From positions 62,001-126,000 of the forward strand of contig JABFXY010000087.1 in assembly GCA_013361525.1 (NCBI GenBank): 64,000 nucleotides of DNA. The letters are read 5' to 3'. Source of the stretch: Polyangiaceae bacterium. GTDB lineage: Bacteria > Myxococcota_A > Polyangia > Polyangiales > Polyangiaceae. The notes under the pieces were generated by a model. It did no database searches and had not been told where the DNA came from. It saw only the letters and a program-made list of their open reading frames with translations. How positions within the stretch are numbered: the first letter of the stretch is position 1; each line of letters starts with the position of its first letter. Below are positions 1,042 through 7,326 of this stretch, in pieces. The translations under genes were made by a program, and so were the position numbers.

Positions 1042-3330
1042 TCAAGAGGCAGATGAATCGGTCTGCTCCTCGACGTCTTCCGCCGGCTTTTTCTTCGCTT
1101 TCGGTTTCGCGGCCGATCGATCGCCCGTCTGCTCGCAGCTCGCGAGCAGGATCTCGGCGATATCGAGCTGCTTGATCGACTCTTCCTTCGACTCGGCCTT
1201 GAGACCGTCGGTCAACATCGTCTGGCAGAAGGGACACGCGCTCGCGACCGTCTCGGCGCCCGTTTCGAGGAGCTGGTTCGTGCGCTTGACGTTCACGCGA
1301 TCCTTGTTCTGCTCCTCCATCCACATCTGCGCGCCGCCGGCTCCGCAACACAGACCCTTGTTGCGGTTCCAGCTCTCCACCTCGAGCAGCTCGAGGCCGG
1401 GGACGCTCTTGAGGACATCGCGGGGAGCGTCGTACACGTTGTTGTAGCGGCCGAGGTAACAGGAGTCGTGATAGGCGACCTTGGCCTTCACGGTGCCGCG
1501 CGGCTGGAGCTTCTTCTCGTTGACGAGGTTCGAGAGAAACTCTGCGTGGTGCACGACCTCGAACTTGGCGCCGAAGTCGGGGTACTCGTTCGCGAGGGTG
1601 TTGAAGCAGTGCGGGCACGCCGTGACGATGGTGCGGATGCCGCCCTGCTCTTTGTAGCCGTTGAGCGTGGCGACGTTCTGCTCGGCGAGCATGAGGAAGA
1701 GGTATTCGTTGCCGGCGCGGCGGGCGGGATCGCCGGTGCAGGTCTCTTCTTGGCCGAGGATGGCGAAGTCGACGCCGGCCTCTTTCATCAGCTTCGCCGT
1801 CGCGCGCGCGACCTTCTTCGCGCGGTCGTCGTAGCTTCCGGCGCAGCCGACCCAATAGAGGACCTTTGCGTCGGGCTTGTCGCTCATCAACGGGATGTCG
1901 AGGCCATCGGCCCAGTTCGCGCGATCGACGCGCGCGAGGTTCCACGGGTTGCCGTTCACCTCCATCGCGCCGAAGGGGCCGTTGAGCTGCGCGGGGAACT
2001 CTCCCTTGAGCATCACCAGGTTGCGGCGCATGTCGACGATCTTGTCGACGTAGCTGATCATGACCGGGCACTGCTCTTCGCAGGCGCGGCAGGTCGTGCA
2101 GGCCCAGAGCACGTCGGGGTGAACGATGTCGCCGGTGAGCTCGATCGGCGCGGGGGCGCCCTCTTCGGCGACGGCGGCCGCCTCTTCCTCGGTGAGCTTG
2201 CGCGGCGGGTTCTTCTTCGCGTCGATCAGCTCTTCCGCGCGGCCGTAGAGGTGGTCGCGAAGATCGAGGGTCAACATCTTCGGGCTGAGCATCTTGCCCG
2301 TCTTGTGCGCAGGGCAGTTGTCGCTGCAACGACCGCACTCGGTACAGGTGTAGAAGTCGAGGATCGCCTTCCACGTAAAATCCGTGATCTTCGCGGCGCC
2401 GACGGGCTGCGCGTCGGGCTTGTTCTCCATCGCGGCCTCCATGATCGGCATCAGCGCCTCGGAGGAGCTCGCAACGGGCAACAGCCTGCCCGGCGCGTCG
2501 AGGTTCCGGAAGAAGACGTTCGGGAACGACGTGATGATGTGGAAGTGCTTCGAGTGAGGAAGGATGTTCGCGAAGATGAGGACGAGGCTCGAGTGAGCCC
2601 AGAAGCCCGCGTGCGCCAGGAAATGCAGCGTCTTCGGCGTAGCGCCGCCGATGATCGCGGCGAGGATGCTGCTCGCGGGCGCGTGCCACACGAAGCCCAT
2701 CGGCTTTCCGGCGTGATCGCCGAGCGGCGCGACGACCGTCTTCACACCTTCACAGATGGCGTCGTCGGGGCGGGTGCCGAGCGCGCTGTGCGTCGTGCCG
2801 GCGCAAGCGGCCGCGACCTTGGGTGAGAGCGCGAACATCGACGCGTTGTAGAGAATGTCCGCGACCATCATCGTGATGATGATGCCGAGGATGAGCAGGC
2901 CCTCGCCCGAGAGCGTCATGCGCCCTTCGCGGCGAATGGCGCGCATGTAGACGAAGAAGAGCGCGCCCAAGATGACGGCGACCGCGACGATCTCCTTCAA
3001 CAGGTCGTAGACCATGCCGAGCGGCTGCTCGTGCCCGAACAGGAACAGACTGAAGTCCGGGAAGAACCCGCGCCCCCACAGGATGATCGTGTTGATGAGC
3101 AACACGGAGAACCCCACGAAGATCGCCATGTGGGCGATGCCCGCGTACGGGTAGTAGTGCATCTTGCGCTGGGCGAGCGTGTACTCGACGACACCTCGCA
3201 GGCGCTCCGGGATGCGATCGAAGCGGGCCTCGGGTCGACCGACGAGCATGAGCTCGAACCGTTGCTTCGCGGAGAGCCCGAACATCGCCGAAAGGACGAC
3301 GATGACGAAGGCCATGGCGTAGGGGTTCAT
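1042..3330 (-). CDS. Membrane-bound (Fe-S)-binding oxidoreductase, HdrD/GlpC-like
   Basis: Putative electron-transfer protein of 762 residues that joins a membrane cytochrome-like part to a heterodisulfide-reductase-type Fe-S part. About 270 N-terminal residues hold several transmembrane helices (NarI/DUF-like). Two 4Fe-4S motifs follow: CTECGRCSDNCP from C329 and CTTCRACEEQCP from C411. Then come two cysteine-rich CCG-type domains; the first has CTGDPARRAGNE plus ACPHC, the second LCCGAGG plus ACPFC. Such proteins usually pass electrons between flavoprotein dehydrogenases and the quinone pool. The ATG giving MNPYAMAFVIVV was chosen because a GTG 23 codons upstream (3399) adds an Arg-rich segment before the first helix. 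It is transcribed divergently from the kinase-DsbA fusion. Confidence 0.88.
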   Translation of the reverse strand: MNPYAMAFVIVVLSAMFGLSAKQRFELMLVGRPEARFDRIPERLRGVVEYTLAQRKMHYYPYAGIAHMAIFVGFSVLLINTIILWGRGFFPDFSLFLFGHEQPLGMVYDLLKEIVAVAVILGALFFVYMRAIRREGRMTLSGEGLLILGIIITMMVADILYNASMFALSPKVAAACAGTTHSALGTRPDDAICEGVKTVVAPLGDHAGKPMGFVWHAPASSILAAIIGGATPKTLHFLAHAGFWAHSSLVLIFANILPHSKHFHIITSFPNVFFRNLDAPGRLLPVASSSEALMPIMEAAMENKPDAQPVGAAKITDFTWKAILDFYTCTECGRCSDNCPAHKTGKMLSPKMLTLDLRDHLYGRAEELIDAKKNPPRKLTEEEAAAVAEEGAPAPIELTGDIVHPDVLWACTTCRACEEQCPVMISYVDKIVDMRRNLVMLKGEFPAQLNGPFGAMEVNGNPWNLARVDRANWADGLDIPLMSDKPDAKVLYWVGCAGSYDDRAKKVARATAKLMKEAGVDFAILGQEETCTGDPARRAGNEYLFLMLAEQNVATLNGYKEQGGIRTIVTACPHCFNTLANEYPDFGAKFEVVHHAEFLSNLVNEKKLQPRGTVKAKVAYHDSCYLGRYNNVYDAPRDVLKSVPGLELLEVESWNRNKGLCCGAGGAQMWMEEQNKDRVNVKRTNQLLETGAETVASACPFCQTMLTDGLKAESKEESIKQLDIAEILLASCEQTGDRSAAKPKAKKKPAEDVEEQTDSSAS

Positions 3331-3418
3331 GGACGTTGGGAGGGTTTCTAGGGTCGCACCACGCGCGGCGTCAAACCTCCTCTTGTACGCCCCGCGCACG
3401 TGATAAACGAGACGAGCG

Positions 3419-6400
3419 ATGGAAGAGCTCGAGGCGGGGAGCGTCTTCGGCGAGGACTACGAGATCGTCCGGGCGATCTACACCGGCGGGCTCAGCACGA
3501 TCTACGAGGCGAAACAGCGGTCGACCGGCGATCGGCGCGCGCTGAAGGTCGTGCACGGCGCGCTCGGCAAGGACGAAAAGATCCGGTCCGCGTTCCTCGA
3601 GGAGGCGAAGCGCGCGTCGCAGATTCAGAGCCCACACGTCGCGGAGGTCGTCGCGTGGGGGTGTGACCCCGAGACCGGTCACCCGTTCGCCGCGCTCGAG
3701 CTCCTCGAGGGCAAACGCCTATCGCAATACCTCGATGAAAACGGCCCGATGAGCCCGGCGGAGCTGCTCGGTTTCCTCCGCCAGCTCGGGCACGCGCTCG
3801 CGGCGGCGCACGCGGTCCACGTGGTGCACCGCGATTTGAAGCCCGAGGGGATCATGCTCGCCGCGAGCCCGACCGAAGGGCTCGCCTACCGCGTCGAGGT
3901 CCAGTTCGTCGGCGTCGGCAAGATCGCCTCGGAGATCCGCGAGAACACGACCGCCGCGATGAGCCGCGGGTTGTGGATGGCCCCCGAGCAAGCAGAGACG
4001 AACGCTCGCCCGACGCCGGCGACCGACGTGTGGACGATCGGCCTGCTCGCGTTTTGGCTCGTCACCGGCAAGCACTACTGGAAGACGGCGCGCGACATGG
4101 GCTCCGCGATGGTGACGCTCATGCGCGAGGTGTTGTTCGATCCGATCGTCCCCGCGTCGAAGCGCGCGGCCGAGCTCGGCGTCGAACGATTGCTCCCGCC
4201 AGGCTTCGACGCCTGGTTCGCCCAATGTGTGAGCCGCGACCCCGCTCGCCGGTTTCAAAACGCGTGGGACGCGGTGCGAGCCCTCGAGGTGGCTGCAGCG
4301 GCATGGCCGAGACCGGCAACGACGGCGATCCCCGGCTCGGCGACGCAGGCGCCTCAGCAAGAACGAGCGAAACCCGCCGACGCGGCGGCCGCGGCGGCCG
4401 CGGCGGCTGCGCGGCCGGTGATGTTTTCGATCCCCGGCCAACACTCCGCCGTCGAGCCACAGCGTCCCGCTGCGCCGAGCGCGGTCGAAGTACCGGGCGC
4501 TGCTGCGCCTCCAGCCGCTCCACCGCCCGCGATCGAGGAGAGCGACGAACCAGCTCCAGCGCCGATCGCAACGAGCGGTGGCGACGACGCTGCCAAGCCG
4601 GCTCCCCGCGCGCCGAGCCGCGGAGCGAAGACGGCGCGGCTCGTCGCCGGTCTCGTCGTGGCGGCCGTCGTCTCGGGAGTCGGCGGATACTACGCGAACG
4701 GCGCGTACAAGGCTTATCAGCGCAAGGTGAAACGCGAAGAAGCTGCACGCGAAGACGCGGAGCGTGAGGCCGAGCGCGAAGCCAAACGAGAAGAGGCGAA
4801 GCGAAAGAAGAAGATGCTCGAGGAGTGGTCCGACCTCGACGGGTCGGTGCCGATCTCGTTCGCCGATCCGTCGACCGGGAGCCGCACGGCGCCGGTCACG
4901 ATCGTCGAGTTCACCGATTTTCAGTGCAAGCCGTGCCGCAACCTGGAAAAGACGCTCAACCTATTGAAGCTCGAATACCCACCGACCGATCTCCGCGTCG
5001 TGTGGAAGAACTGGCCGCTGCCGGCCCACGATCGCGGCAAGGCCGCCGCGCAGGCGGGAATTGCGGTCTTCAAGAATGCGAAGAGCGACGGCTTCTTCAA
5101 GTTTGCGACGTCGGCGTTCCTCTCCGAAAGTGACGAGCTCTACGACTTCGAGCTCCAGGGTTGGGCGCGCGACGCGGGCGTCAACGACTTCTCCAAGTAT
5201 CTGCGAGACGCCGAAAGCCTCGAGACCACCAAGAAGGTCGAGGCGGACTTGGCGCTCGGCCGAACGCTCGGCGTGCGGCGGGCACCGACGCTGTTCATCA
5301 ATGGCCTTCCGCTCGAGGGCGACCGGCCGATCGAGGAGCTTCGAAAGGTCATCGAGGAGCAGCGCCAAAAAGGGAAATCGGAAGCCGACAAAGGGACGGA
5401 CGCCGACAAGGTTTACGTCGCGCTCACCAAAGAACAATTTGCGACCGTCCCCCGCCCTCAGCCTGCGCCGCCGGACCCGAATGCAATGTACCGCGTGCCG
5501 CTGGACCGGTCGCCCGCTCTCGGCAAGAGCGACGCCCCCGTGACGGCCGTCTTGTTCGCCGACGTGACGTCGCCCGACTGCGCTGCCCTCTATAAGACAA
5601 TCGAAGGTCTGAAGGCGACCTACGGCGATCGGCTGCGCATCGTATGGAAGGATCGACCGCTCGAGACGAGCGCAAGGTCCGTGGCGGCCGCCAACTTCCT
5701 TCGCGAGGCGCGAGCCCTCAAAGACGACGAGCTCTTCTGGAAAGCTGCCGCGCTCCTCTTCGAGCATCAAACCGCGCTCGAAGACGGCGACTTGAAGGGA
5801 TACGCAAAGACGCTGAAGGTGAGCGCCACCAAAACCGTCGACGCCGTCACGTCATTGAAACACAATGCCGACATCGCGAAGGACGAGGCTCTGGCCGAGC
5901 TCTTGGACGTCGATACGGTGCCGCAGCTCTTCATCAACGGCAAACGCGTCGTGGGAAACAAGAGCGCAGCCGACATCGGCAAGCTCATCGACGACGCCGA
6001 GACCGACGCAAAGAGCCTGACGGCAAGAGGCGTCGCAGCGACCGCCGTCTACGACGAGCTCATGAAGACCGCGAGGCCCGACACCCTCGACCTTCGTATC
6101 GTCGATCCGGGCTTCGTCTCCTATATGTCACCTCGCCTGGGCGCGCCCTACGCTGCGACGGTCGTCGTTCAGCAGTTTTGCGATTACGAGTCGCCGGACT
6201 GCAAGAAGATGGCTCCCGTCCTCAAGAAGCTCTCCACCCAAAACCCCGACAAGGTCGTCATTCACTTCCGCTATCTGCCACTGCCTGAAAACGCAAATGC
6301 ACGAACGGTGGCGATGGCAGGAGCCGAGATGAAGACGCAGTGCGGCGATCCGTGCTTCTTCGACTTCGTCGATGTTTGGTACGCCCAGCACGGGACCAAC

Positions 6401-6661
6401 CCACCCGACTTCCGTGCCGCGCTCGGCAAAGCGGCCGCGGCTGCGGCCGCGAAAACATACAGCGTGACCTTCGACGGGACGGCGTTCGAGTCCGCCATCG
6501 ACACGAAGAAACACAACTACACGATTGGCGAGGACGAGAAGGCCGCCGAAGCGCTCGGCATCACCGAAGTGCCCACCTACGTCGTCGGGAAGTACTTGTT
6601 CACCGGCGCCATCAGCGAGCAGAAGTTTCAGGCGCTCGTCGACAGAGTCGCGACGGAGTAA
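3419..6661 (+). CDS. Pseudokinase fused to three DsbA-like thioredoxin domains
   Basis: Transmembrane fusion of 1080 residues. Residues ~10-300 have the Hanks kinase fold: glycine loop GGLSTIYEAK, ALKVV with K43, HRDLKPEG at 137-144 and an APE motif. The Asn that should follow HRDLKPE is Gly144, and the DFG triplet reads FVG (163-165), so both Mg-binding residues are missing and catalysis is unlikely. An Ala/Pro-rich linker, one membrane helix (~404-430) and a charged helix (~433-470) lead to three DsbA-like domains. The first keeps CKPC (503-506). The second and third have SPDC (Cys721, Cys928), lacking the nucleophilic first Cys. All three keep a cis-Pro loop (APTLFING, VPQLFING, VPTYVVG). 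The kinase-like part should be cytosolic and the thioredoxin part periplasmic. Function unknown; signalling or scaffolding across the membrane is an inference. Confidence 0.88.
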   Translation: MEELEAGSVFGEDYEIVRAIYTGGLSTIYEAKQRSTGDRRALKVVHGALGKDEKIRSAFLEEAKRASQIQSPHVAEVVAWGCDPETGHPFAALELLEGKRLSQYLDENGPMSPAELLGFLRQLGHALAAAHAVHVVHRDLKPEGIMLAASPTEGLAYRVEVQFVGVGKIASEIRENTTAAMSRGLWMAPEQAETNARPTPATDVWTIGLLAFWLVTGKHYWKTARDMGSAMVTLMREVLFDPIVPASKRAAELGVERLLPPGFDAWFAQCVSRDPARRFQNAWDAVRALEVAAAAWPRPATTAIPGSATQAPQQERAKPADAAAAAAAAAARPVMFSIPGQHSAVEPQRPAAPSAVEVPGAAAPPAAPPPAIEESDEPAPAPIATSGGDDAAKPAPRAPSRGAKTARLVAGLVVAAVVSGVGGYYANGAYKAYQRKVKREEAAREDAEREAEREAKREEAKRKKKMLEEWSDLDGSVPISFADPSTGSRTAPVTIVEFTDFQCKPCRNLEKTLNLLKLEYPPTDLRVVWKNWPLPAHDRGKAAAQAGIAVFKNAKSDGFFKFATSAFLSESDELYDFELQGWARDAGVNDFSKYLRDAESLETTKKVEADLALGRTLGVRRAPTLFINGLPLEGDRPIEELRKVIEEQRQKGKSEADKGTDADKVYVALTKEQFATVPRPQPAPPDPNAMYRVPLDRSPALGKSDAPVTAVLFADVTSPDCAALYKTIEGLKATYGDRLRIVWKDRPLETSARSVAAANFLREARALKDDELFWKAAALLFEHQTALEDGDLKGYAKTLKVSATKTVDAVTSLKHNADIAKDEALAELLDVDTVPQLFINGKRVVGNKSAADIGKLIDDAETDAKSLTARGVAATAVYDELMKTARPDTLDLRIVDPGFVSYMSPRLGAPYAATVVVQQFCDYESPDCKKMAPVLKKLSTQNPDKVVIHFRYLPLPENANARTVAMAGAEMKTQCGDPCFFDFVDVWYAQHGTNPPDFRAALGKAAAAAAAKTYSVTFDGTAFESAIDTKKHNYTIGEDEKAAEALGITEVPTYVVGKYLFTGAISEQKFQALVDRVATE

Positions 6662-6691: not shown

Positions 6692-7273
6692 CTATAGCGT
6701 GAACTCGAACGCTTTTTCGCTCGCCTTGTCGCCGGGCGAGAGCTCGAACGCCGAGGCGTACGAGCGCTGGCCCACGCGCACGCCGAGGCGAACCTTCACC
6801 GGCGCGGTCGCGGTGCCGAGCTTCTCGAGCTTCACGACGACGCGGTAGCGCCCCTTCTCCGGCTCGCCGCTCGCGAGAAAAACGTTCTCCACGTTTTGGC
6901 TGAAGCAACCGCCGTCGCGTGGGCAATCTCGATCCTTGTAGAGACCGCTGGTCGTCGCCTCGCCGGGCTGCGCGACCTCCCCCGCGGCGTCCGTGACCTC
7001 GAGGTTCACGTCGGCCTCGGCCGCGTCCCAGGCGATCGCGAATTGAAGGATGCCGGTATGAACACCACACCCTTCGTCGATGACGCCGTTGCAGTTGTTG
7101 TCGATCGCGTCGAAGCACATCTCGACGCCGCTCGGCGTGCAGGCTTGCTCGAGGCTGGCGCCGTCCGGTGCGGAGACGTCGCGCATCGCGAGCTCCGCAG
7201 GCTTACCGGTGCCGGGCACCTCCAGGCACGCAGACACGGAGGCGATGGCGGCGATGGCGAACAATCGTTGCAC
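6692..7273 (-). CDS. Lipoprotein with MopE-type metal-binding motif
   Basis: Predicted exported lipoprotein, 193 residues from a GTG start chosen because it gives a compact signal peptide ending in SVSAC (lipobox). A TTG further upstream (7318) is less likely. Around residues 50-70 there is FDAIDNNCNGVIDEGC, matching the Cys/Asp-rich putative metal-binding motif first described in the copper-binding protein MopE and common in myxobacterial surface proteins. The remainder (IAWDAAEADVNLEVTD...) looks like a beta-sandwich. Convergent with the kinase-DsbA gene and divergent from the TSUP transporter gene. Ligand and role unknown. Confidence 0.72.
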   Translation of the reverse strand: MQRLFAIAAIASVSACLEVPGTGKPAELAMRDVSAPDGASLEQACTPSGVEMCFDAIDNNCNGVIDEGCGVHTGILQFAIAWDAAEADVNLEVTDAAGEVAQPGEATTSGLYKDRDCPRDGGCFSQNVENVFLASGEPEKGRYRVVVKLEKLGTATAPVKVRLGVRVGQRSYASAFELSPGDKASEKAFEFTL

Positions 7274-7326
7274 GGCGAACAGAGCGGGAGCATGACACCC
7301 GCCGAGGACGGCAGGCAAGCACGGCG

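Follow-up and report, generated by a model that had tools for sequence, protein, structure and literature searches.

A predicted membrane pseudokinase with three DsbA-like domains carries the same catalytic lesions in a same-genus orthologue

What could a receptor-like protein do when its kinase domain appears to have lost the catalytic metal site and is joined, through a predicted membrane helix, to an array of three DsbA-like domains? One gene in the window, by which we mean the whole 64 000-nucleotide stretch of Polyangiaceae DNA that we analyzed, raises this question. The gene (positions 3419..6661, + strand) begins with ATG and runs for 1080 codons without an internal stop, with a GC3 of 0.73–0.89 across all its segments and of 0.81–0.89 within its four domains. 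Its 1080-aa translation matches Pfam Pkinase at residues 14–279 (2.5e-25), Thioredoxin_4 in three stretches (1.7e-47) and DSBA, while a search of the protein against NCBIfam returned nothing specific above cut-offs. A hydropathy scan located one hydrophobic stretch, at residues 403–426 (4625..4696, +), between the kinase and DsbA parts and followed by a long charged stalk. Together with the Pfam matches, this single stretch bears out an earlier sequence-only reading, according to which one membrane helix joins a kinase part to three DsbA-like domains. The order of kinase domain, single helix and DsbA-like part is that of Mycobacterium tuberculosis PknE and, by analogy, the kinase-like domain is predicted to face the cytoplasm and the DsbA-like domains the outside. 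The architecture is not a chance arrangement, because a same-genus orthologue and three further fusions exist.

We compared the catalytic residues of the kinase-like domain (residues 8–294, about 1–300; 3440..4300, +; delimited by Pfam Pkinase, AlphaFold2 and fold matches) with those of 90 stand-alone relatives from the same and related genomes, using the window protein's numbering throughout. The alignment shows that the domain retains the beta3 lysine K43 (3545..3547, +), the alphaC E62, H137, R138, D139, K141, G165, E190, D203 and R278. In the catalytic loop, HRDLKPEG (residues 137–144; 3827..3850, +), Asn144 is replaced by Gly; FVG stands in place of DFG (residues 163–165; 3905..3913, +), with Phe for Asp163; and the third glycine of the glycine loop, Gly26, is Ser. 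The sequence-only reading had reported K43 and HRD as kept and Asn144 and DFG as lost, and both claims hold in the alignment. From the active Hanks-type set the domain thus has K43 and D139, with Gly at N144 and Phe at the DFG Asp; all four residues (K, D, N, D) are intact in 87 of the 90 stand-alone relatives. A displaced acidic residue at the metal site was also considered, and no replacement acid is apparent in the alignment beside the DFG position (VEVQFVGVG), the sole near acid being E160, three residues upstream.

The fold itself is confidently predicted. AlphaFold2, supplied with an alignment of relatives, modeled the window's kinase domain with a pLDDT of 87.5 and a pTM of 0.86, leaving the activation loop (residues 166–181) poorly defined. 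The model matches the structures of PknA, PknB, PknI and PknE with Z about 26–30, PknA being closest (Z = 30.3 over 263 residues, rmsd 2.1), and in agreement with the Pfam match it has the bilobal fold of Hanks-type, PknB-like kinases. Taken together, alignment and model indicate that the domain keeps the kinase fold and has lost its metal site, and it is very probably inactive as a kinase.

Has this loss been maintained? A search of same-genus genomes found a full orthologue (genome G001, locus L063, 938-4063, –), whose kinase domain reads HRDLKPEG and FVG and so has both lesions. Between the two proteins, identity is 59% in the kinase domain, where dN/dS is about 0.32 (dS 1.1), and 38, 47 and 38% in the three DsbA-like domains, D1, D2 and D3, where the dN/dS ratios are 0.77, 0.62 and 0.73; these values come from a simple Nei-Gojobori calculation at fairly high dS and are trustworthy in their ranking only. 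Of all the parts compared, the kinase domain is conserved best and is under the strongest constraint. This ranking and the orthologue's identical lesions indicate that the pseudokinase is being maintained rather than decaying.

The same architecture was sought in other genomes, and four further fusions were found in the family, each with a damaged kinase, so that five kinase-DsbA fusions were detected among 108 same-family genomes, the window's included. Besides the two described above, the G024 fusion has Lys replaced by Glu, HGNLSPST, DLG and three DsbA domains; the G057 fusion has K43 replaced by Glu and HGELEPGN, where the HRD Asp is Glu, keeps Asn and DFG, and has three DsbA domains; and the G005 fusion has HQDLRPAT, DLG and two DsbA domains, and keeps K43, D139 and the Asp of the DFG position. 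The last is the weakest predicted loss and, judged by these residues, may retain some kinase activity. None of the five has the full set of Lys, HRD Asp, Asn and DFG Asp, and no single lesion is common to them all. A deviation in at least one of these residues is found in 5/5 fusions versus 3/90 stand-alone relatives (Fisher p about 1e-6, which does not count independent events as the rows are related by descent). The structural residues E190, D203 and R278 are kept, and the reading frame is intact, in all five. The orthologue's identical lesions, the purifying selection on the kinase domain, its confident fold and the deviation of every fusion in the family strongly support the pseudokinase reading.

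We also asked how widely, and how often, such fusions have arisen. Long open frames suspected as fusions, examined as 20 plus 20, were kinase-free DsbA proteins or DsbA-free kinases, bar the known five. Among DsbA loci of another family in the same order, sampled from 13 genomes, no kinase-DsbA fusion was seen, and a search of viral contigs found no related protein. A class-wide kinase scan of 318 genomes considered the best 7 candidates of each, all with E below 1e-103, and so does not prove absence elsewhere. An independent origin of the five fusions was suggested by a first quick tree, which needed three changes, but constrained trees scored better than the one that the free search itself produced: those holding all five, or four, fusions together were not rejected (p-AU 0.85 and 0.82). 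The trees therefore allow, but do not show, that the five kinase domains arose once. Separately, a kinase relative with no detected DsbA part, at the start of locus L175 (G031, contig C89), differs at only one of the four catalytic residues checked, the catalytic-loop Asn, which is Thr.

We now turn to the three DsbA-like domains. D1 (residues 471–660; 4829..5398, +), identified by Pfam Thioredoxin_4 and DSBA and by matches to DsbA structures in the PDB, contains CKPC at residues 503–506 (4925-4936). D2 (residues 691–870; 5489..6028, +) and D3 (residues 896–1080; 6104..6658, +), delimited by Pfam, inspection of cysteines and a three-domain alignment, each contain SPDC (5570-5581 and 6191-6202), in which Ser replaces the nucleophilic Cys and the second motif Cys is retained (C721 and C928). 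The cis-Pro is invariant across all three, which together with the three Thioredoxin_4 stretches marks them as DsbA-like. It had been claimed that D1 alone has CxxC and that all three keep the cis-Pro, which is correct, and that D2 and D3 each have a single Cys, which is true of D2 (C721) and not of D3, where C921, C975 and C979 could form other disulfides. An AlphaFold2 model of D3 alone was poor (pLDDT 50), and we draw no conclusion from it.

The pairing of one active with two degenerate thiol domains, put forward by the sequence-only reading, is not supported as an operating principle, for CxxC is present throughout the DsbA domains of the four remaining fusions. By the same comparison, SPDC is a change private to the window copy; as a feature of the family it is ruled out by the orthologue, whose domains have CPFC, CPYC and CPFC.

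DsbA arrays are common in these bacteria. Matches to the array were found in 104 of the 108 family genomes, mostly in kinase-free proteins whose domains usually all carry CxxC. Because kinase-free arrays are near-ubiquitous in the family, the fusion is best read from these comparisons as a widespread local module that has gained a kinase-like domain. A signaling protein of another type also has the array as its outer part: locus L135 (917-3382, –; G040, contig C99) encodes a TIR_2 domain (3.6e-12), a membrane helix and DsbA/Thioredoxin_4 domains with CxxC. Among the lipoproteins with triple DsbA domains, those at L123, L125, L126, L127 and L136 have CPFT or CPFS instead of CPFC in D1 and often in other domains, a separate loss of the motif's second Cys.

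The genomic neighborhood offers a possible redox connection. The divergent neighbor (1042..3399, –) encodes a membrane Fe-S protein, an HdrD-like oxidoreductase with two Pfam CCG matches and Fer4, and taking the ATG at 3330 as its start codon places that codon about 88 bp from the ATG of the fusion. The same divergent pair, a CCG oxidoreductase beside the fusion, occurs at the orthologous locus (L063, 4084-6396, +), and a redox link or a shared promoter is possible; the CCG neighbor is conserved in that one other genome only, and the genes beside the G005 fusion differ. Convergent with the fusion gene is a small gene (6692-7318, –) whose lipoprotein-like product has a MopE copper-binding motif. 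The genome, about 11.9 Mb long, contains well over a hundred kinase-like matches. It also has three VKOR genes, of which at least two encode a fused DsbA-like domain, and the VKOR-DsbA proteins could keep the fusion's DsbA domains oxidized. Elsewhere, at L021 (8391-11513, +), lies a second degenerate kinase, with HGQLKPSN, LGVA for DFG and Sel1-like repeats behind it; a similar gene, in which HRD and DFG are both intact, directly adjoins it upstream, and the two are possibly an active-dead kinase pair.

How does the protein compare with known systems? PknE of M. tuberculosis combines a kinase, one membrane helix and one extracytoplasmic DsbA-like domain (PMC3792642), a plan also noted elsewhere (PMC1262709). 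PknE (Rv1743) and the window protein share the N-terminal Hanks-type kinase domain, the single helix and the DsbA-like part, and 2h34, the structure of the PknE kinase, ranks with the best matches to the window domain (sequence 3.1e-23, fold Z 26.0), although PknA is nearer in fold and slightly nearer in sequence. The two differ in that PknE is described as a protein kinase, a type expected to have complete catalytic residues, with a single DsbA-like domain (CPPC), whereas the window protein is missing both metal ligands and has three such domains (CKPC, SPDC, SPDC). We consequently regard it, from its sequence, as a putative PknE-type receptor plan with a dead kinase and multiple DsbA domains, and do not class it among PknE-type kinases. 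The kinase-helix-DsbA plan has thus been described before, though for a kinase with a single DsbA domain; a literature search, mainly of non-subscription papers, found no description of a pseudokinase-DsbA protein, and a prior description is possible.

Among bacterial pseudokinases, ActPs3 (MviN) is a membrane protein in which a bulky active-site aromatic blocks ATP (PMC12599244), comparable to F163 here; ActPs3 has, however, lost all three canonical catalytic motifs and has a deletion in its activation loop (PMC12599244), whereas the window protein keeps K43 and HRD. DYD pseudokinases have the beta3 Lys replaced by Arg and the alphaC Glu lost, and DLHK pseudokinases have no transmembrane region (PMC12599244), while the window protein keeps K43 and E62 and has one predicted membrane helix. 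The 2025 review of bacterial Ser/Thr pseudokinase families mentions neither thioredoxin nor DsbA nor Myxococcota (PMC12599244). Within the family, the triple-DsbA membrane proteins and lipoproteins have the same three-domain array without a kinase domain, mostly with CxxC in all three, and the VKOR-DsbA fusions of the same genome share a membrane-bound DsbA-like domain, with a multi-helix quinone reductase in place of the kinase-like domain.

Our preferred explanation, which we hold tentatively, is a single-pass receptor with a periplasmic thiol or redox input and an inner pseudokinase that acts by binding a partner, without catalysis. Thiols, disulfides or thiol-containing peptides would react with the three periplasmic DsbA-like domains or be bound by them; the cytoplasmic domain would not bind the catalytic metals and hence would not phosphorylate, and would instead relay its state by conformation, most likely by pairing with one of the cell's many active Hanks-type kinases or another partner. 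The sequence-only reading had suggested redox sensing or an allosteric scaffold, and this is still the best candidate mechanism. The receptor model is supported because both lesions are identical in the syntenic orthologue despite divergence elsewhere; because all five fusions are deviant while the kinase fold is confident and E190, D203 and R278 are kept; and because CxxC is kept in the other fusions' DsbA domains, VKOR-DsbA proteins are present and PknE provides a precedent. Weighing against it are the conservation of the CCG neighbor in only one other genome, the differing lesions of the five fusions and the least deviant kinase, that of G005. A purely redox-catalytic input is weakened, since two of the three DsbA domains in the window copy are without the nucleophilic Cys. 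More doubtfully, the fusions may form a distinct lineage of redox receptors in which a transmembrane pseudokinase, in place of an active kinase, senses the state of the disulfides in a periplasmic DsbA array and binds other kinases to control them, the array being a swappable outer module that is also used, for example, by the TIR protein.

Other explanations account for part of these observations. The protein could be held at the membrane to serve exported proteins as a thiol oxidoreductase or chaperone, its pseudokinase serving as a cytoplasmic anchor or docking scaffold with no signaling role. The widespread kinase-free triple-DsbA proteins (104/108), with their membrane or lipoprotein anchors, indicate that the array works without a kinase, and the CxxC retained in the other fusions fits such a role; yet a mere anchor would hardly be expected to be the best-conserved part of the protein, as the kinase part is, and the window's D2 and D3 are without the nucleophilic Cys, so that we consider this rather unlikely. 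It is improbable that the kinase-like domain still catalyzes the transfer of phosphate or some other group by unusual means, whether independent of metal or along an alternative route. The two metal ligands are missing, Ser replaces the third Gly of the glycine loop, the Phe replacing the DFG Asp could fill the pocket, and in other fusions it is K or D that is lost, so that no common chemistry is preserved; in favor of such catalysis are the retained K43, E62, D139 and K141, and the bacterial DLHK pseudokinases with a kept HRD Asp, which are also considered possibly active (PMC12599244). Least probable is a decaying fusion heading toward a pseudogene, even though fusions were detected in only 5/108 genomes, lesions vary by lineage and two CxxC motifs have also been lost in the window copy. 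Against decay, the frame is intact in 5/5 fusions, GC3 remains high in the window gene's domains, the kinase dN/dS lies well below 1, and the orthologue keeps both the lesions and the synteny.

Bacterial pseudokinases are largely unstudied, and here the predicted dead state is conserved between species. The dead kinase is tied to one outer module whose input would be chemically testable, and the same genomes hold many intact paralogues for contrast. This combination makes the role of a bacterial receptor pseudokinase directly testable.
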